Positions 2,418 to 17,547 of a stretch of 20,965 nt of DNA are shown here, piece after piece. The DNA is from an uncultured Oxalobacteraceae bacterium (GTDB lineage: Bacteria; Pseudomonadota; Gammaproteobacteria; Burkholderiales; Burkholderiaceae). Below the pieces are notes generated by a model. The model searched no databases and had not been told where the DNA came from. It saw only the letters and a list, made by a program, of their open reading frames with translations. Positions within the stretch are counted from its first letter, which is position 1. Each line of letters opens with the position of its first letter. A program made the translations under genes and the position numbers. The stretch is taken from NCBI GenBank assembly GCA_946480015.1, contig CAMLIL010000099.1, positions 1-20,965 on the forward strand. The letters run 5' to 3'.

Positions 2418-3347
2418 CTAGCGTTTGAACAGGCGCGTCACGCCGCTGACCACCAGCAGGGCGCAAGCGCCGGCGATCACGCCGGCCACCGCATCGACCA
2501 CCGAGGTCGCCAGCGGCTTGAGCAGGAAGCCCACGCCCGGCACGCCGGCCGCCCCGGCGCCGATGTTTTCGGCAACGTGGTGCAGCGTCTCCGGTGCGCC
2601 ATGCATCAGGATGCTGCCGCCGACCATGAACATGGCCAGCGTGCCCAGCACCGACAGGGCTTTCATCAGGCGCGGCGCGGCCGCCAGCAGCAAGCGTCCG
2701 AACGCCTGCGAGGAGCCGTTGCCGCGCCGGCTCAGGTACAGTCCCGCATCGTCCATCTTGACGATACCGGCCACCAGGCCGTACACGCCGACCGTCATCA
2801 CCACCGCGATAACGCACAGCACCGCGACCTGCTGGGCGAACGGCATGGCCGCCACCGTGCCCAGCGAAATGACGATGATTTCCGCCGACAGGATGAAATC
2901 GGTGCGGATCGCGCCCTTGACCTTGTCTTTTTCCAGCGCCACCAGGTCGACCGATTCGTCGGCCAGGGCCGTAGCCAATGCCTCGTGGTGGGCCTGATCT
3001 TCTTCCTCGCTGTGCAGCAAGCCGTGCGCCAGTTTTTCCACGCCTTCGTAGCACAGGAACAGGCCGCCCAGCATCAGCAGCGGCTGGATCGCCCAGGGCG
3101 CGACGGCGCTGATGGCCAGCGCGGCCGGCACCAGGATGGCCTTGTTGATGAACGATCCCTTGGCCACCGCCCACACCACCGGCAGCTCGCGCTCGGGATT
3201 GACCCCGCTGACCTGCTGGGCGTTGAGCGCCAGGTCGTCGCCCAGCACGCCGGCGGTTTTCTTTGCCGCCACCTTACTCATCAAGGCGACGTCGTCCAGG
3301 ATCGTTGCGATATCGTCGATCAGTGCCAGCAAGCTGCTTGCAGCCAT
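2418..3347 (-). CDS. yedI: YedI/DUF808 family inner-membrane protein
   Basis: A 309-residue polytopic membrane protein of the DUF808 (YedI) family, whose biochemical function is not established. The family N-terminus is very clear: MAASSLLALIDDIATILDDV followed by ALMSKVAAKKTAGVLGDDLA. Several hydrophobic segments follow, at roughly residues 75-100, 165-210, 235-260 and 285-305. A charged loop rich in Glu and His (HSEEEDQAHHEA) lies between the first and second groups. The length fits the roughly 305-residue E. coli protein. The frame is open upstream to 3443, but the ATG at 3347 has a strong GAGGGAG ribosome binding site and starts exactly where the family starts. It is divergent from the BrnA-like gene. 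Confidence 0.9.
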   Translation of the reverse strand: MAASSLLALIDDIATILDDVALMSKVAAKKTAGVLGDDLALNAQQVSGVNPERELPVVWAVAKGSFINKAILVPAALAISAVAPWAIQPLLMLGGLFLCYEGVEKLAHGLLHSEEEDQAHHEALATALADESVDLVALEKDKVKGAIRTDFILSAEIIVISLGTVAAMPFAQQVAVLCVIAVVMTVGVYGLVAGIVKMDDAGLYLSRRGNGSSQAFGRLLLAAAPRLMKALSVLGTLAMFMVGGSILMHGAPETLHHVAENIGAGAAGVPGVGFLLKPLATSVVDAVAGVIAGACALLVVSGVTRLFKR

Positions 3348-4977: not shown

Positions 4978-6873
4978 ATGAGTAACCGTCTCGCCAAAAC
5001 TGTCACGCTGCTGGCGTTGTCGGCCCTGTCCACGCTTGCGCTGGCCGACGTGCCGGGCCGGGTCGGGCGCATTTCGGTGGCCGAGGGACAGGTCAACATC
5101 AGCACCGAGGTGGGCGAACAGGCCGACGCGGCGCTGGTCAACTGGCCGGTGACGTCGAACAACCAGATCACCACCGCGCGCGGCGCGCGCACCGAGCTGC
5201 GGGTCGGCTCGACCGCCATCCGGCTCGACGGCGATTCGGCCCTGGAAGTGGTCGAGCTCGACGACGACACCTTGCGCCTGCACCTGCATTACGGCAGCGT
5301 CAGCGTGCGCGTGCGCAATCCCGACGTGCTGCGCGGCTTCGAACTGTCCACCCCGCAAGGCCGCGTGCGCCTGCAGGAACCGGGCCGCTTCCGGGTCGAC
5401 GCCGAGCGCCAGCCCGACACCAGCGTGGTCAATGTATTCGAAGGCGTGGCCAGCGTCGACGGCGCGGGCTCGACGCTGACCGTGCGCGCCGGCCGCCGCG
5501 CCGAACTGCAGCAGGACGACATCCGCACCGCCCTGGCCGTGCGCGACGGCTTCGACGACTGGGCGCTGCTGCGCGACCGCCGCGACGAGCGCGCCGTGTC
5601 GGAACGCTATGTCACCAGCGAAATGACCGGGTACGAGGAACTGGACCAGAACGGCAGCTGGCGCGACGACGCCGAATACGGCCCGCTGTGGATACCGCGC
5701 AATGTGGCCTCCGGCTGGGCACCCTACCGCGACGGCCGCTGGACCTATCTCGCTCCCTGGGGCTGGACCTGGGTCGACAATGCGCCCTGGGGCTACGCGC
5801 CCTTCCACTACGGCCGCTGGGTGATGGTCAACCAGCGCTGGTGCTGGGCGCCGGGACGCAATATCGGCCGGCCGGTGTGGTCGCCCGCGCTGGTGGGCTG
5901 GGTCGGCGGCGGCGGCTGGAGCGTGACGTTCAATAGCGGCGGCGTGCGCCGTCCGGCACCGGCGCAGGGCTGGTATCCATTGACCCCGCGCGAGACCTTC
6001 GTGCCGCACTACGGCATCTCGCAGGATCGGCTGCGCTACATCAACCGCCATGCGCGCGACGACGACAGGCACAAACACGATCGCGATCACGATGGGCGCC
6101 ACGACGGCTTGACCGTGGTGCCGCAGGAACATTTCGCCCGGCGCGTGCCGGTGGTGGTGCCGTCCGTGCCGAAAGCCGTGGTCACGCCGCTGGCGCTGCA
6201 GACGGCTCCGGTAGCCCGCCCGCCGGTCCCGCAAGGGGTGGCGCGCGAAGTAGTGAGGCCTGGCCCGGACCGGCGCGACGGCGTGCGCGGCCAGCCGCGC
6301 TTCGAACGCAACGCCGATGATGTGCGCCCGGTCCTGTCGGTCGGCCGGCGCGAGGACAACCGCGGCAACGGCCGCCCCGAGCGCGACAACGACCGGCGCG
6401 ACGACAATCGGCGCGATGATAATCGCGCCGCTGCCGCCCCGGTGGCCGTGAGCGCGCCGCCGGTCATGCAGGTTCAGCAGCCGCAACCAGTGGTGCAGCC
6501 GCAAGCGCAGCCGCAGCCGCAGCAGCCGCGCTGGGGCGTCGCGGCGCCGCGCCAGGACGACCGTGGCGAGGCGATGCGCGCACGCTTCGAGGCCGAGCGC
6601 GAGCGCCGCCAGCAGGAGCATGGCCAGCGCCAGGCGGCCCAGCCGCAAATGCAGCAGGCGCCGCGTCCGCTGGTGATGCCGGCGCCGGTGCACGCCCAGC
6701 CGCAACCACAGCCGCAACCGCAGTTCGCGGCCCAGCCGGCGCAGGTGGCCCGTCCAGCACCGGCGCCGCAAGCGGCAGCGCAGAGCGCTCCGGCGCCGCG
6801 CCATGAAGAGAAACACAACCAGAAAGCCGCCGACAATGAGGACAAGCCGTCGCGCGGGCGCATGTTGCGCTGA
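4978..6873 (+). CDS. Secreted FecR-like/DUF6600 protein with disordered tail
   Basis: A 631-residue exported protein. Residues 1-23 are a signal peptide ending Ala-Leu-Ala before Asp24. Residues about 28-190 form a FecR-like beta domain (GRISVAEGQVNI, then NNQITTARGARTELRVGSTA, then LSTPQGRVRLQEPGRFRVD). Residues 225-345 are the DUF6600-type tryptophan and tyrosine-rich region, with repeats of the kind WAPYRDGRWTYLAPWGWTWV and PWGYAPFHYGRWV. From about 355 the chain becomes low-complexity: a His/Asp/Arg patch, RRDDNR repeats, then Gln-Pro-rich sequence (PQPQPQPQ) ending basic. Periplasmic or surface location is expected; function is unknown. A longer frame opens at 4870, but the ATG at 4978 has CTGGAG upstream and starts the signal peptide. 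The 677-residue minus-strand frame here is a shadow. Confidence 0.87.
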   Translation: MSNRLAKTVTLLALSALSTLALADVPGRVGRISVAEGQVNISTEVGEQADAALVNWPVTSNNQITTARGARTELRVGSTAIRLDGDSALEVVELDDDTLRLHLHYGSVSVRVRNPDVLRGFELSTPQGRVRLQEPGRFRVDAERQPDTSVVNVFEGVASVDGAGSTLTVRAGRRAELQQDDIRTALAVRDGFDDWALLRDRRDERAVSERYVTSEMTGYEELDQNGSWRDDAEYGPLWIPRNVASGWAPYRDGRWTYLAPWGWTWVDNAPWGYAPFHYGRWVMVNQRWCWAPGRNIGRPVWSPALVGWVGGGGWSVTFNSGGVRRPAPAQGWYPLTPRETFVPHYGISQDRLRYINRHARDDDRHKHDRDHDGRHDGLTVVPQEHFARRVPVVVPSVPKAVVTPLALQTAPVARPPVPQGVAREVVRPGPDRRDGVRGQPRFERNADDVRPVLSVGRREDNRGNGRPERDNDRRDDNRRDDNRAAAAPVAVSAPPVMQVQQPQPVVQPQAQPQPQQPRWGVAAPRQDDRGEAMRARFEAERERRQQEHGQRQAAQPQMQQAPRPLVMPAPVHAQPQPQPQPQFAAQPAQVARPAPAPQAAAQSAPAPRHEEKHNQKAADNEDKPSRGRMLR

Positions 6874-9054: not shown

Positions 9055-9981
9055 CTAGGCTGCCGCGAATGCCGCGGCGGCCCGGCGGTACTGCTCCGCC
9101 GTGGCCAGCAGCCATGCCTCGAATACGTTCAAGAGCGGCGAACCCTGCTTCGCTTCCGGATACACCAGGTAGTAGCCGCTCTCGCTGCGCAAGGGAATAT
9201 CGCAGGGGATGACCAGTTCGCCGTTGCGTAATTCATTGAGCACGAAGAAGCGCGGCACCAATGCCACGCCCAATCCGGCGCGTGCCGCTTCCACCAGCAT
9301 CGAAAACAATTCATAGCGCTGGCCGCGCATGCAGTCGGCGCTGTCCACGCCCGCCTGGGCGAACCAGTGGCGCCATGCTTGCGCACGTGCCGACTGGTGC
9401 AGCAGCGTGAATTTGGTAAGGTCCGCCGGTGTCAGGCCCGTGCGGTTGCCGAGCATGCGCCGGCTGCATACCGGCGTCATTTCTTCGCCCAGCAAATGAC
9501 GCGCCATCGCGCCCGGCCATACAGGGTTGCCGAAGTGAATGGCAGCATCGAATGGCGTGTCGGCGAACATGAAAGGTTCGGCGCGGGTAGTGAGATTCAG
9601 CGTGATGTTGTCATGCCGCGCATAGAACTGCGGCAGGCGAGGGATCAGCCATCGCGTGGCGAACGTCGGTATCACCGCCAGCTCCAGTATGCCGCCGGCG
9701 CCCTTGTGCGCCATCGCGGCCAGCGTGTCATGCTCGATGCGCTCAAGATGCTCTCTCACCTGTTTCGCATAGGCACGCCCCACATCGGTCAGGATCAGGC
9801 GTTTCTTCACCCGGTTGAACAAGGGTACGCCGACGTAGTCTTCCAGCCCGGCGATCTGCCTTCCCACCGCGCTTTGCGTCAGCGCCAGTTCATTGGCGCT
9901 GCGCGTGAAACTTTCATGCCGTGCTGCCGCTTCGAAAGCGATCAGCGCCTCCATGCTCGGGATCTTTCTTCTCAAGTTCAT
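9055..9981 (-). CDS. LysR-type transcriptional regulator, GcvA-like
   Basis: A 308-residue LysR family regulator. The N-terminal winged helix-turn-helix reads MEALIAFEAAARHESFTRSA and ELALTQSAVGRQIAGLEDYV, ending VPLFNRVKKRLILTDVGRAY. The C-terminal two-lobed effector domain starts near residue 90 (LELAVIPTFATRWLIPRLPQ) and includes GLGVALVPRFFV, as in the GcvA-like subgroup. It is transcribed divergently from the radical SAM aminomutase operon with 206 bases between the starts. This is the classic arrangement for a LysR protein controlling its neighbour, probably with a substrate or product as co-inducer. The N-terminal MNLRRKIPSM is a normal start for this group; GAGG lies very close to the ATG. 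Confidence 0.93.
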   Translation of the reverse strand: MNLRRKIPSMEALIAFEAAARHESFTRSANELALTQSAVGRQIAGLEDYVGVPLFNRVKKRLILTDVGRAYAKQVREHLERIEHDTLAAMAHKGAGGILELAVIPTFATRWLIPRLPQFYARHDNITLNLTTRAEPFMFADTPFDAAIHFGNPVWPGAMARHLLGEEMTPVCSRRMLGNRTGLTPADLTKFTLLHQSARAQAWRHWFAQAGVDSADCMRGQRYELFSMLVEAARAGLGVALVPRFFVLNELRNGELVIPCDIPLRSESGYYLVYPEAKQGSPLLNVFEAWLLATAEQYRRAAAAFAAA

Positions 9982-10030
9982 TCCTCAAACGCACAAGGTG
10001 CCGAATTTTTATCGTTTGTGAAGTATTAGC

Positions 10031-10085
10031 GTTGGCGCAACACTGTAGTCCATTCAATGCCGGCCAAGTGACGAACGGACTATAG
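10031..10085. promoter_or_regulatory. Candidate LysR operator region upstream of the kamA-like operon
   Basis: Two symmetric elements lie between the divergent regulator and operon. GTTG-GCG-CAAC (10031-10041) is a perfect palindrome of the short, gapped type bound by LysR proteins. CTGTAGTCC (10043-10051) and GGACTATAG (10077-10085) form a 9-bp inverted repeat with one mismatch and a 25-base centre. The right arm contains the -10-like TATAGC (10081-10086). The site's position fits autorepression plus activation of the operon. The regulator-site assignment is inference. Confidence 0.4.
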
Positions 10086-10187
10086 CGTTTATCTGGCCCG
10101 CTGTTGACGTCGATCATGGCGAAGTTTGCGAAATGTCAAACCGCCGGTCCCGCAAAGGTACTTCAACTGACCATGGAAGGAAACACG

Positions 10188-11636
10188 ATGAGTCTCGCGA
10201 ACAAGGAATCCGCTGCACCGTTGCCAAGCAAGTTCAAGCCCTATACCCGGCAAACAATTCATCAGGCGCCGCAATGGGCGCGCATGCCGGAGGAGCTGCG
10301 CGAAGCGGTACAGGTCATTTCGCATGTCCTGCCGTTTCGCACCAACGAGTACGTCATGAACGAGCTGATAGATTGGGACAAGGTTCCGGACGATCCGATC
10401 TACCGCCTCACCTTCCCCCATCGCGACATGCTGGCGGCCGACGAATACGAACGGCTGCGCGACCTTGTCCTGTCCAATGCCGACGAGCAGGCGATCAACA
10501 AGGAAGTGTGGCAAATCCGCATGCGCATGAATCCGCACCCGGCCGGGCAGATGACGCACAACGTGCCGATGGTGAACGGCGTGCCGCTGCGCGGCGTGCA
10601 GCACAAGTACAAGCAGACGGTGCTGTTCTTCCCCAGCGCCGGCCAGACCTGCCACGCCTACTGCACCTTCTGTTTCCGCTGGCCGCAGTTCGTCGGCATG
10701 GACGATTTGAAATTCGACGCTAAGGAAACATCCGAGCTGGTGGCCTACCTCAAGCAGCACCCTGAAGTGACCGACGTGCTGATCACAGGCGGCGATCCGC
10801 TCATCATGAGCACCCGTGCACTGGCAGGCTACCTCGAGCCGCTGCTGGTGCCGGAGCTGTCCCACATCCAGAACATCCGCATCGGCACCAAGTCGGTATC
10901 GTACTGGCCGCAGCGTTTCGTGACCGACAAGGATGCCGACGACCTGATCCGTCTGTTCGAGAAAGTGGTCGCCGCGGGCAAGAACCTGGCGATCATGGGG
11001 CATTACAACCACCCGGTCGAGTTGCGGCAAGAAATTGCGCAGAAGGCGGTCAAGCGGATCGTCGGCTCCGGGGCGACGCTGCGCATGCAGGCGCCGTTGA
11101 TCCGCCACATCAATGAAGACCCGAAAGGCTGGGCGGAGTTGTGGACCACCGGCGTGCGCCTGGGCGCGATTCCGTATTACATGTTCGTCGAGCGCGACAC
11201 CGGACCGAAGAACTATTTCGCGCTGCCACTGGCGAAGGCTTACGAGACTTTCCAGGCGGCATACCAGCTGGTGTCCGGCCTGTCACGCACGGTGCGCGGC
11301 CCGTCGATGAGCGCGTTCCCGGGCAAGGTGGCGGTGGACGGCATCGTGACCATCGCAGGAGAAAAGGTGTTTGCGCTGCAGTTCCTGCAGGCGCGCAATC
11401 CGGATTGGGTACGCAGGCCTTTCTACGCGAAGTTCGACCCGGAAGCGACCTGGCTGGACGACCTGGTGCCGGCCTTCGGCGAAAAGAAATTTTTCTTCGA
11501 GACCGATCAGGACGAGGTGGACCAGACGCGCGGGCACAAGGTGGTGCACATGCTGGAACGCCACGATACCCGTGTCACGCCGGTCGTGGCGAACTCCGCG
11601 CCGGACGACCGCACCGTCGCAGGGGGAAGGCAATGA
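10188..11636 (+). CDS. KamA-family radical SAM aminomutase of uncertain substrate
   Basis: A 482-residue PLP-dependent radical SAM enzyme of the lysine 2,3-aminomutase family, expected to move an amino group from C2 to C3. The cluster motif CHAYCTFC is Cys155, Cys159, Cys162. Arg164 follows it where lysine aminomutase has its substrate-carboxylate arginine. GGDP is 201-204 and a PLP-binding lysine is likely in FPGKVAVDG (Lys380). By hand alignment to the Clostridium enzyme, the two aspartates that hold the lysine side chain correspond to Arg336 (in YYMFVERDTG) and Ser373, so lysine may not be the substrate. The C-terminal segment (FLQARNPDWVRRPFYAKFDP) is unlike short EpmB proteins. GGAAGGA precedes the ATG at 10188; a TTG at 10104 is less likely. 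It overlaps the aminotransferase gene by four bases. Confidence 0.88.
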   Translation: MSLANKESAAPLPSKFKPYTRQTIHQAPQWARMPEELREAVQVISHVLPFRTNEYVMNELIDWDKVPDDPIYRLTFPHRDMLAADEYERLRDLVLSNADEQAINKEVWQIRMRMNPHPAGQMTHNVPMVNGVPLRGVQHKYKQTVLFFPSAGQTCHAYCTFCFRWPQFVGMDDLKFDAKETSELVAYLKQHPEVTDVLITGGDPLIMSTRALAGYLEPLLVPELSHIQNIRIGTKSVSYWPQRFVTDKDADDLIRLFEKVVAAGKNLAIMGHYNHPVELRQEIAQKAVKRIVGSGATLRMQAPLIRHINEDPKGWAELWTTGVRLGAIPYYMFVERDTGPKNYFALPLAKAYETFQAAYQLVSGLSRTVRGPSMSAFPGKVAVDGIVTIAGEKVFALQFLQARNPDWVRRPFYAKFDPEATWLDDLVPAFGEKKFFFETDQDEVDQTRGHKVVHMLERHDTRVTPVVANSAPDDRTVAGGRQ

Positions 11637-13021
11637 CTTATCTGTTGCACAGGCAGATCAATCACGACTATCCGCTGGCCGTTGCGGGCCAGCAGGAATA
11701 TTTGATCGACGCGGACGGCAAGCGCTATATCGATGCCAGTGGCGGCGCCGCCGTTTCCTGTCTCGGCCACCAGCATCCGGAGGTGATCGCCGCGATGCAG
11801 AAGCAGATGGCGGCGCTGTGTTATGCGCACACCGGTTTCTTCAGCACAGCCGTCGCGGAAGAGCTGGGCGAAGAGTTGATCCGGCATGCGCCGCGCGGAC
11901 TGTCGCATGCCTATCTCGTCTCCGGCGGCTCGGAAGCGGTGGAGGCGGCACTGAAGCTGGCGCGGCAATACTTCGTCGAACGCGGCGAACCCCAGCGCCG
12001 GCGTTTCATCGCCAGGCGGCAGAGCTACCACGGCAATACGCTGGGCGCGCTCGGCGTCGGCGGCAATGCCTGGCGGCGTGCACAGTTTGCGCCGCTGCTG
12101 ACGGAAAGCCACTATATCGATCCCTGCTACGAGTACCGTTACCGGCAGCCCGGCGAGACGCCGGAGCAATACGGACAGCGCGCCGCCGACGCACTGGAAG
12201 CGAAGCTGATCGAGCTGGGGCCGGAAAGCGTCATTGGCTTCGTCGCCGAACCGGTGGTGGGCGCGACGCTGGGCGCGGTACCCCCGGCGCCGGGATATTT
12301 CCGGCGCATTCGCGATATCTGCGATCGTTACGGCATCTTGCTGATCCTCGACGAAGTCATGTGCGGCATGGGGCGCACCGGCTCCTTGCATGCCTGCGAA
12401 CAGGAGGGGATCGCACCGGACCTGATGACGGTGGCGAAGGGTTTGGGCGGCGGCTATGCGCCGGTCGGCGCGGCTCTCGTGGGCGCGAACATCTACGACA
12501 CCATCGCCACGGGATCGGGCGTGTTCCAGCACGGCCACACCTACATCGGCCATCCGCTTGCCTGCGCCGCCGCGTTGGCGGTGCAGCGCATCGTCCACCG
12601 CGACAACCTGCTGGGCAATGTACGTGAACGCGGCGCGCAGCTGATGCAGGGTTTGCAGGCGCGCTTCGCAGAGCATCCGCATGTGGGTGACATCCGCGGG
12701 CGCGGGCTGTTCCAGGGTATAGAACTGGTGGCCGACCGTGAACGGAAACTGCCCTTCGAGGCGAAGCGCAAGATCCACGCCAGGATCAAGACCGAGGCGC
12801 TGGCGCGCGGCCTGATGGTGTATCCGATGGGCGGCACGATCGACGGCAGTAGCGGCGACCATGTATTGCTGGCGCCGCCGTTCATCGCAAGCGCGGCGAC
12901 CATCGATGCCATCGTAGAGCGCCTGGGAGAATCGGTCGATGCGGCCATCGCTGCAGCCGGGCTGCATGGCGGGCAGGCCCAGGCGGCGGCATCCACGCCC
13001 TCGATCATGGCTCACGCATAA
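11633..13021 (+). CDS. Class III PLP-dependent aminotransferase
   Basis: A 462-residue fold-type I, class III aminotransferase, the group that includes omega-amino acid, beta-amino acid and 7,8-diaminopelargonate aminotransferases. Family blocks are present: DASGGAAVSCLGHQHPEV, VSGGSEAVEAALKLARQYF, SYHGNTLGALGVGG, LILDEVMCGMGRTG (Asp240 contacts the PLP nitrogen) and TVAKGLGGGYAPVGA with the Schiff-base lysine Lys269. The start overlaps the aminomutase stop (ATGA) with AGGGGGAAGG as ribosome binding site, so the two should be made in fixed ratio. In context it probably acts on the amino acid formed by the aminomutase, removing its shifted or terminal amino group. The exact substrate cannot be read from sequence. 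The tail (GGQAQAAASTPS) is flexible. Confidence 0.92.
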   Translation: MTYLLHRQINHDYPLAVAGQQEYLIDADGKRYIDASGGAAVSCLGHQHPEVIAAMQKQMAALCYAHTGFFSTAVAEELGEELIRHAPRGLSHAYLVSGGSEAVEAALKLARQYFVERGEPQRRRFIARRQSYHGNTLGALGVGGNAWRRAQFAPLLTESHYIDPCYEYRYRQPGETPEQYGQRAADALEAKLIELGPESVIGFVAEPVVGATLGAVPPAPGYFRRIRDICDRYGILLILDEVMCGMGRTGSLHACEQEGIAPDLMTVAKGLGGGYAPVGAALVGANIYDTIATGSGVFQHGHTYIGHPLACAAALAVQRIVHRDNLLGNVRERGAQLMQGLQARFAEHPHVGDIRGRGLFQGIELVADRERKLPFEAKRKIHARIKTEALARGLMVYPMGGTIDGSSGDHVLLAPPFIASAATIDAIVERLGESVDAAIAAAGLHGGQAQAAASTPSIMAHA

Positions 13022-13034
13022 CAAGGAGAAAAAC

Positions 13035-13571
13035 ATGCCTCGCATTCCCTATCAGCCGTCGGACCTCGCGGAGCCCAAGGCGATCGTCGATGCCATCCGC
13101 GCCCGTCGCGGCGGCAGGCTGCTCAACCTCGACCGCATGCTGCTCAACAGCCCGGCGCTCGCGAGAGGATGGAACGCGTTCCTCGGCGACGTGCGCAACA
13201 ACCTCGAACTGCGGGCCCGGCTGCGCGAGCTGGCGATGTGCCAGGTTGCGCTGTTGAATGGCGCGGACTACGAGTTCCACCACCATGCGCCCGAATTCCT
13301 CAAGGCGGGCGGCACGCAGGCGCAGCTCGAAGCCTTGCGCGGTGTCGGCAGTGAGAGCGCTGCCTTCGATGCCGGTGAACGCGCGATCATTGCGCTGATC
13401 CGCGCGATCACGGTTGATGTGAAGGTCAGCGACGCGGTATTCGATGCCGCGCGTGCAGCTCTGAAAAGCGACCAGCTGACGATCGAACTGGTTGGCGTCG
13501 TGGCGACCTACAACATGGTGTCGCGTTTTCTCGTTGCGCTCGGCATCCGTCCGGAGGAGGAAGAAGCATGA
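13035..13571 (+). CDS. Carboxymuconolactone decarboxylase-family protein
   Basis: A 178-residue protein of the carboxymuconolactone decarboxylase/AhpD-like all-helical family. The signature segment is [20 protein letters not shown] followed by [11 protein letters not shown] (residues about 63-93), and a second helix pair contains [19 protein letters not shown] and [20 protein letters not shown]. Members include true decarboxylases, AhpD-type peroxidase partners and many enzymes of unknown role. AhpD's CxxC is absent: only one cysteine (Cys69) is seen, so a thiol peroxidase role is unlikely. AAGGAG at 13023-13028 gives a clear start 13 bases after the aminotransferase stop. It overlaps the ferredoxin gene by four bases. 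Decarboxylation of a keto acid from the upstream enzymes is possible but is inference. Confidence 0.85.
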
Positions 13572-13891
13572 CCTTTGTCGTCACCGAAAACTGCATCCGC
13601 TGCAAGCATACCGATTGCGTCGAGGTTTGCCCTGCGGACGCCTTCCGCGAAGGCCCGAACTTCCTCGTCATTTCGCCGGACGACTGCATCGACTGCGCGC
13701 TCTGCGTGCCGGCCTGCCCGGTCAAGGCGATCTACCAGCAGGAGGAAGTGCCGGAAGGCCAGCGTGAATTTATCGCGCTCAATCGCGAGCTCGCTGGCGC
13801 ATGGGAGCTGATCTACGAGCGCAAGGATGCGCCGGCGGATGCATCCCAGTGGTCCAACGTGAAGGGCAAGCTGGAACACCTGGCGAGATAG
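13568..13891 (+). CDS. fdxA: Seven-iron ferredoxin (FdxA type)
   Basis: A 107-residue ferredoxin carrying one [3Fe-4S] and one [4Fe-4S] cluster, close to Azotobacter vinelandii ferredoxin I in length and sequence. From the known AvFdI ligands, Cys9, Cys17 and Cys50 bind the 3Fe cluster, and Cys21, Cys40, Cys43 and Cys46 bind the 4Fe cluster. Motifs are [15 protein letters not shown] and [13 protein letters not shown]. The non-ligand cysteine found near the 4Fe cluster in AvFdI is Ala25 here. The C-terminal half ([28 protein letters not shown]) matches the long tail of this class. Many genomes keep fdxA elsewhere; here it is the last gene of the radical SAM operon, overlapping the previous gene (ATGA). 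It may supply electrons for SAM cleavage. Confidence 0.93.
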
Positions 13892-16647: not shown

Positions 16648-17547
16648 ATGCATATGAAGAATTTGTACCGCCCAGGCGCCGCCGTGCTGGCCGCCGTGCT
16701 GGCCACCGCTGCGGCGCAGGCCCAGAACAGCCCCGACATGGGCAAGCTGACCGCGACCGGCGGCGTCAGCCAGCTCGAAGGCGCGGGCGGCGGTGGCCTG
16801 ACGCCGTGGGCCTTGATTACGGGCTATGGCACGCGCGACAGCTGGGGCGCCAACGCCCACGTCACCGGCGTGCGCACCCAGGATTACACGCTCGACAGCT
16901 ACGGCGTGGCGGTGGGCATCGCCGACCGCATCGAATTGTCGCTGGCCAGGCAAGACTTCCGCGGCAACCTGGCGCCGCTCGATCAGTTGCATGTCTCCCA
17001 GGAGATCGTGGGCGTGAAGCTCAAGCTGATCGGCGATGCGGTCTACGACCAGGACTTGCCGCTGCCGCAGATTTCCATCGGTCTGCAGCACAAGCGCAAC
17101 AAGGGCATCGGCGGGCTGGGCGCGCTCGGCGTGACCTCGGTCACCCAGCTGGGCGCAAAGAAAGACAGCGGCACCGATGTCTACCTGGCCGCCACCAAGC
17201 TCTACCTCGATTCCAGCCTGCTGCTCAACGGCACGGTGCGCGCCACCAAGGCCAACCAGATGGGCCTGCTGGGCTTCGGCGGCGACATCAACGACAGCTA
17301 TGAAGCCATGTTCGAGGCCTCGGCCGCCTATCTGGTGGACCGCCGTTTCATCGCAGGGGTGGAATACCGGAGGAAGCCGCGCAACCTCGGCGTGGACAAC
17401 GAGAAGGCTTACTACGATGTGTTTGCCGCGTGGTTCCCGAGCAAGCATGTGTCGGTCACGGCGGCGTACGCGGTGCTGGGCGAGATCACGATCTTCAACC
17501 CCACGCGCCAGCGCGGGGCTTACCTGTCGGTCCAGACCGGCTTCTGA
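16648..17547 (+). CDS. DUF3034 family outer-membrane beta-barrel protein
   Basis: A 299-residue exported protein of the DUF3034 family, function unknown. A signal peptide ends Ala-Gln-Ala near residue 25 (before Gln26). The mature part starts with a glycine-rich stretch (GGVSQLEGAGGGGLTPWALI) and then shows alternating amphipathic strands ending in GAYLSVQTGF. The terminal phenylalanine is the usual C-terminal signal of an outer-membrane barrel. AAGGG (16635-16639) is correctly spaced for the ATG at 16648; a second ATG at 16654 and a GTG at 16642 are less well placed. It follows the exported globin gene by 22 bases, suggesting a joint role at the cell envelope. Its stop codon abuts that of the convergent tlpA-like gene inside a single TGATCA. 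Confidence 0.87.
   Translation: MHMKNLYRPGAAVLAAVLATAAAQAQNSPDMGKLTATGGVSQLEGAGGGGLTPWALITGYGTRDSWGANAHVTGVRTQDYTLDSYGVAVGIADRIELSLARQDFRGNLAPLDQLHVSQEIVGVKLKLIGDAVYDQDLPLPQISIGLQHKRNKGIGGLGALGVTSVTQLGAKKDSGTDVYLAATKLYLDSSLLLNGTVRATKANQMGLLGFGGDINDSYEAMFEASAAYLVDRRFIAGVEYRRKPRNLGVDNEKAYYDVFAAWFPSKHVSVTAAYAVLGEITIFNPTRQRGAYLSVQTGF

Follow-up and report, generated by a model that had tools for sequence, protein, structure and literature searches.

A LysR-associated radical SAM operon predicted to act on an acidic beta-amino acid, possibly beta-glutamate, in an Oxalobacteraceae bacterium

Introduction

What does an operon do when each of its products belongs to a known kind of enzyme and their combination is unfamiliar? 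This question is raised by a contig of 20,965 nucleotides from an uncultured Oxalobacteraceae bacterium (assembly GCA_946480015.1, contig CAMLIL010000099.1; the whole stretch is called the window here). A gene for a KamA-like radical S-adenosylmethionine (SAM) and pyridoxal phosphate (PLP) protein is followed there by genes for a class III aminotransferase (AT3), a protein of the carboxymuconolactone decarboxylase (CMD) family and a 7Fe ferredoxin of the FdxA type (Table 1). A sequence-only reading of the locus had proposed that an alpha-amino acid is carried through a beta-amino acid to a beta-keto acid. Its observations were right and its interpretation, partly supported by the present analysis, can be made specific: the operon probably serves beta-glutamate metabolism, with the substrate as a prediction. 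The reading that we favour in full, in which LysR controls an operon for an acidic beta-amino acid and this amino acid is most likely beta-glutamate, is put forward tentatively, at slightly under even confidence.

In the literature searched, with most subscription journals outside it, we recognized no paper on this gene set or on beta-glutamate catabolism by transamination; the kinds of enzyme are known, and neither their combination nor the probable substrate was found there. If the assignment is correct, a large radical SAM clade (at least 7,998 homologues matched) acquires a named substrate, aerobes gain a route by which beta-glutamate can be formed or consumed, and a function can be given to the aminotransferase family for which NCBIfam has only the name 'aspartate aminotransferase family protein'.

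Results and discussion

Operon structure and gene families

Direct reading of the open reading frames confirmed four co-directional genes with ATGA overlaps at 11633 and 13568, a 13-base gap between AT3 and CMD, and a divergent LysR gene. Two such overlaps in a co-directional set that itself recurs in a related locus (L004) are judged to be more than chance. The family identities first given to four of the products also held, each scoring above a model cut-off: AT3 matched Aminotran_3 (321 bits) and PRK07483 (NF005685; 769.4 bits, cut-off 485), CMD matched PF02627 (39 bits, gathering score 23), the ferredoxin matched NF045490 (152.6 bits, cut-off 135), and the regulator matched the GcvA subfamily model (290.6 bits, cut-off 288).

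Table 1. Features of the operon and its regulator, in window coordinates
Feature	Position	Strand	Codons, motifs and models	Assignment
LysR-type regulator, GcvA subfamily	9055..9981	-	PF03466/PF00126	divergent from operon
Candidate LysR operator	9986..10018		dyad CAAACG-N21-CGTTTG	between LysR and KamA start codons
KamA-like radical SAM/PLP protein	10188..11636	+	ATG 10188 (alternative in-frame ATG 10173), TGA 11634-11636; C155-x3-C159-x2-C162, R164, R336, K380	predicted glutamate 2,3-aminomutase-like
Class III aminotransferase (AT3)	11633..13021	+	ATG 11633, TAA 13019-13021; PRK07483	predicted beta-glutamate:2-oxo acid aminotransferase
CMD-family protein	13035..13571	+	ATG 13035, TGA 13569-13571; no CxxC	predicted beta-keto acid (3-oxoglutarate) decarboxylase or helper
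FdxA-type 7Fe ferredoxin	13568..13891	+	ATG 13568	predicted electron donor to KamA-like enzyme

The KamA-like protein and its probable substrate

The first operon product has the fold of lysine 2,3-aminomutase (LAM; KamA/AblA, PDB 2a5h), with which it shares 20-23% identity. The cysteines of the radical SAM motif CxxxCxxC (C155, C159 and C162) are invariant in 24 sequences. K380 and R164, which we take to be the PLP-binding lysine and the carboxylate arginine, are invariant in sequence set A2, R164 being aligned to LAM and K380 to canonical relatives. A radical aminomutase fold with both residues in place is therefore supported, and a 1,2-amino shift would be expected, as in LAM. The protein falls below the cut-offs of TIGR00238 (124.7 against 199.2 bits), of Radical_SAM PF04055 (22.4 against 29.5) and of all six NCBIfam models matched, among them those for lysine 2,3-aminomutase (TIGR03820; 112.5 against 525.4), arginine 2,3-aminomutase (94.5 against 600) and EpmB (88.0 against 369.3). 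The earlier assignment to a KamA-family aminomutase thus stands for fold, motif and the two residues and not for the models, and we would read the 'KamA family' label as one of homology only.

In the column of LAM Asp293 the protein has an arginine (R336), and at the Asp330 position, counted back from the PLP lysine in LAM numbering, presumably a serine. A basic residue (Lys332) is presumably also found in the Asp293 column of glutamate 2,3-aminomutase (eam, TIGR04368). Because of this arginine, and because a Glu/Asp-type transporter and a glutamate dehydrogenase homologue lie beside AT3 genes (see below), the substrate is probably acidic. A second KamA copy in the L004 genome (L121) retains R336 and the cluster cysteines and has glutamine in place of K380, and the aminomutase step may therefore be lost in this paralogue. 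The substrate and product predicted here are those of eam and of IdnL4 from incednine biosynthesis. IdnL4 is reported to have been assigned by gene disruption, its activity not yet having been seen in vitro (PMC11284099). A lead to the cystobactamid aminomutase proved to concern a different kind of domain (PMC7966384) and was dropped.

Neighbours of AT3 orthologues

We examined 37 AT3 loci. Seventeen are family-level and not random (5 LysR-KamA genomes, all 9 KamA-free AT3 genomes and 3 KamA genomes with a remote AT3), and 20 are class-level, being all AT3 matches of the class sample described below. A beta-keto acid cleavage enzyme (BKACE, which we take to be of the DUF849 type) lies within five genes of AT3 in 10 of the 37; this assignment comes from two members, whose matches to the substrate-specific models NF052387 and NF053568 fall short of the cut-offs. 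Three of the 20 class-level loci have an acetoacetate-CoA ligase gene by AT3 (946 bits against a cut-off of 521 for the L185 member), and L196 has a thiolase gene there (444 bits, cut-off 241). Since AT3 orthologues adjoin these three kinds of gene, AT3 probably forms a beta-keto acid that is finally turned into acetoacetate, and the beta-amino to beta-keto step of the original proposal becomes likely; its coupling of KamA to AT3 found no class-wide counterpart.

Transport genes point to the class of substrate. In five family-level loci AT3, a GltI-like binding protein, CMD and two permeases stand in a row. The binding protein of L174 reaches 368.5 bits against 375 for the Glu/Asp model and has as its best PDB match 2ia4/2vha, which we take to be a Glu/Asp-binding protein; one permease exceeds the GltK cut-off (333 against 318 bits). 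Beside AT3 in L171 stand a homologue of glutamate dehydrogenase that stays under its cut-off (510 against 750 bits) and a TAXI-TRAP protein, which scores 344 bits (cut-off 84).

The same logic could be applied to another acidic or polar substrate (2-aminoadipate, glutamine or an N-substituted amino acid) and yield another beta-keto acid. R336 indicates a side chain that is probably anionic or polar, and neither of the two BKACE proteins scanned reaches the cut-off of any of the several substrate-specific models that it matches. Three of the 20 class-level loci have near AT3 an FAD/GcvT-type protein, which is a poor simple fit to beta-glutamate. What favours glutamate is the presence beside AT3 of a Glu/Asp-type transporter and of a homologue of glutamate dehydrogenase, together with the osmotic neighbours of the wider KamA clade, and we regard another substrate as rather unlikely, if a serious contender. 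Class-level AT3 loci have other transporters; these and the FAD/GcvT-type protein may mark other AT3 substrates in other lineages. In L193, L195 and L198 the AT3 orthologue lies near a fused FAD oxidase/GcvT-like protein (the L195 member is named), a hint that some relatives of AT3 use N-methylated substrates.

The CMD protein and the ferredoxin

The PDB entries that best match the window CMD do so weakly and are named AhpD or AhpD core. They raise the possibility that CMD is an AhpD-like antioxidant: in an aerobe it would shield the radical enzyme, which is sensitive to oxygen, and leave the pathway intermediate untouched. Against this, the CxxC pair that we take to be typical of AhpD is absent from the window sequence, and CMD adjoins or lies near AT3 in 8 of 9 loci that have no KamA (L172-L179, not L171). 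Among the 37 AT3 loci CMD occurs within five genes of AT3 in 14 and together with BKACE in none. The antioxidant role is in our view improbable; the mutual exclusion fits a role for CMD on the beta-keto acid, in line with the assistance to decarboxylation first suggested. FdxA follows KamA downstream in L001-L003 and closes the operon in L004.

Recurrence of the operon and its modules

A genome scan matched at least 594 stretches, at least 588 of them relatives, and the best 80 were kept; genes in fetched loci were called with a simple codon-usage caller, so that starts are approximate. Seven of the 80 (L001-L006 and L034, the last running into its contig end) have a LysR orthologue (74-77% identity) that diverges from KamA, and so does L120. 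AT3 is directly downstream of KamA in two loci (L004 and L034, where the contig ends) and anywhere in the fetched flanks in 16, and FdxA is downstream in four (L001-L004). L120 has LysR-KamA-AT3 without CMD and FdxA. A tree of 114 sequences, made without L123, without 11 closely similar Pseudomonas loci and without any sequence that contained a stop or did not exceed 380 amino acids, places the window, L004 and L120 in one clade (support 0.967) that joins a Paraburkholderia/Trinickia LysR clade (0.743); L034 falls apart from these with weak support. All five Paraburkholderia/Trinickia LysR-KamA genomes searched (three with FdxA) have AT3 on another contig (62-66% identity), with CMD directly behind it in each and a regulator read as RpiR-type ahead in four. 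In the window and L004, whose CMD proteins are 64% identical, the LysR-KamA and AT3-CMD modules are joined as one operon.

KamA is present in 44 of 195 genomes of the family sample, and AT3 in 44/44 of these and in 9/151 of the others; the two share a contig in 35/44 and lie within 12 kb in 31/44. The order sample has KamA in 18 of 399 genomes. The class sample of 369 genomes has KamA in 41, AT3 in 20 and both in 2, and these AT3 counts are lower bounds because scoring stopped at the first four candidates of each genome.

The KamA-like enzyme and AT3 might belong to two unrelated routes placed under a shared regulator by local accident. The lack of association in the class sample agrees with this, as do the distant KamA-like genes without a common neighbour and the loci L001-L003, in which FdxA follows KamA without AT3. 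Two arrangements in the family sample nevertheless keep KamA and AT3 close, one the same-strand operon and the other with AT3 on the opposite strand a few kilobases away (L022), and the five searched LysR-KamA genomes all carry AT3-CMD elsewhere. We think unrelated routes unlikely. KamA genes beside class III aminotransferases in distant Gammaproteobacteria (L138, L145, L161) were rejected as support: all three aminotransferases are 35-37% identical to AT3, and that of L145 is of the BioA type (880 bits, cut-off 729).

The wider KamA clade

Sixty-one KamA loci were compared (46 fetched later and 15 from the best 80), and no neighbour is conserved throughout them. Sucrose-phosphate synthase is close to KamA in L133, L139, L144 and L151 (the L139 member is family-named). 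This tally is 4 of the 129 neighbour proteins in set A3, made by excluding 11 near-duplicate or other-clade loci, keeping 148 of the 174 proteins that passed a filter of 90-800 amino acids, and leaving off the last 19. An MscS channel is near KamA in L066, L069, L133 and L158. Both are osmotic adaptation genes, which is a lead towards an osmolyte role. A review describes beta-glutamate as a compatible solute and gives evidence against an aminomutase as its origin in methanogens (PMC1224877), and a study of Na+ riboswitches has eam, and with it beta-glutamate, among its genes (PMC9337991). A recurring neighbour group (cluster 14) was dropped, its L132 member being a sigma-54 response regulator.

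It is possible, although we hold this with less confidence than the operon assignment, that the proteins with the invariant arginine at the specificity position, which record titles place in seven bacterial phyla, are a new clade of glutamate 2,3-aminomutases and supply many bacteria with beta-glutamate as an osmolyte. In Burkholderiales the clade would then have been joined to an aminotransferase-decarboxylase module, and the result would be a route, so far undescribed, that links glutamate, beta-glutamate and acetoacetate.

Members of the clade from Pseudomonas, Streptomyces and Pantoea occur in sets, probably natural-product clusters, that include such enzymes as an AurF-like oxygenase, an IlvE-like aminotransferase, an MBL hydrolase or a cupin. 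L048, L050-L061, L063-L065 and L068 (Pseudomonas and Trinickia terrae) share a conserved cluster of the KamA-like gene with an IlvE-like aminotransferase, a 2-oxoglutarate (2OG) oxygenase, an AurF-like N-oxygenase and an MBL hydrolase (L051 members are named), to which Pseudomonas adds YjgF, a cupin and GST; it looks like an undescribed natural-product cluster. In L040 (Pantoea agglomerans; L041 from Rahnella bruchi is similar) a single cluster combines two KamA homologues with a protein that weakly resembles ATP-grasp enzymes, a hydroxyacid dehydrogenase, an MBL hydrolase, an FAD protein, a cupin, an MFS protein, GST and CMD. A close homologue filed under the fungus Apophysomyces (P0088) possibly comes from a bacterial endosymbiont. 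Aromatic-compound degradation was set aside as a function: FAA hydrolase, maleylacetoacetate isomerase, a cupin and an MBL lactonase-like protein are near KamA in other lineages, and none is in the window operon.

The proposed pathway and its weighing

In the scheme that we prefer, which predicts substrate, direction and each catalytic step from the observed genes, folds, motifs and co-localization, FdxA would reduce the [4Fe-4S] cluster of the KamA-like enzyme and so supply the electron for SAM cleavage. The enzyme, with SAM and PLP, would move the amino group between C2 and C3 and interconvert L-glutamate and beta-glutamate. AT3 would transaminate beta-glutamate, with a 2-oxo acid as the amino acceptor, giving 3-oxoglutarate, and CMD or spontaneous loss of CO2 would yield acetoacetate for central metabolism. 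The route might serve glutamate consumption or the salvage of beta-glutamate taken up from outside.

Clostridial lysine fermentation likewise has a KamA amino shift and later a beta-keto acid, cleaved by the 3-keto-5-aminohexanoate cleavage enzyme, and acetoacetate; AT3 relatives keep BKACE as a neighbour. In the window, a transaminase replaces the dehydrogenase, CMD replaces BKACE, and there is no B12 mutase. The kamA-yodT type cluster of Bacillus subtilis presumably also places KamA near a class III aminotransferase, and differs, as we understand it, in a lysine-type KamA, in CoA-transferase genes and in having no CMD or ferredoxin.

Several observations weigh against the beta-glutamate proposal. 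The KamA-like protein scores 96.4 bits against a cut-off of 650 with the glutamate 2,3-aminomutase model TIGR04368, we know of no characterized enzyme from its clade, and the residue comparison assumes that LAM holds the side chain of lysine with Asp293 and Asp330 and that Lys332 and Asn369 take their places in glutamate 2,3-aminomutase. Glutamate is already served by direct catabolic routes. The complete gene order that the sequence-only reading would have sought in other genomes recurs in just 1 of the 80 loci (L004). KamA genomes of the family sample are related and therefore do not represent 44 independent events, and in the class sample AT3 is found in 2/41 KamA genomes against 18/328 others. 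The window CMD is a remote branch, about 26-32% identical to those beside other AT3 genes (E 8e-12 to 0.02), which tempers the suggested help in decarboxylation, and the CMD/BKACE split tracks lineage, with 13/14 CMD loci at family level and 10/10 BKACE loci at class level. The FAD/GcvT-type neighbour of AT3 belongs here too, and the role of FdxA as electron donor, as we infer it, is weaker than first stated. The osmotic neighbours emerged from viewing all neighbours, without a background rate; the biosynthetic-looking sets imply several pathways for the clade and no single fixed one; and the eight sources scanned (the window and seven KamA loci) showed no Na+ riboswitch.

Regulatory sequences and other genes of the window

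An alignment of nine LysR-KamA intergenic sequences holds a conserved block with the dyad of Table 1, picked out by eye. Both arms are exact in 6/9, and the other three have one mismatch in one arm. The dyad is not of the T-N11-A type, and a T-N11-A scan did not report it. Promoter and terminator scans yielded no more than with shuffled sequence, and at Rfam gathering scores the same eight sources gave as their sole match one tRNA, in L072.

The names RpiR, Usp, TRAP permease and lipA were read from sequence or context, without a family call. Upstream of the operon the window carries a lipoyl ligase-type protein and a gene read as lipA, and downstream a patatin; these neighbours look ordinary. 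Its other genes include unassigned ones for DUF808 (2418-3347), DUF6600 (4978-6873) and DUF3034 (16648-17547) proteins.

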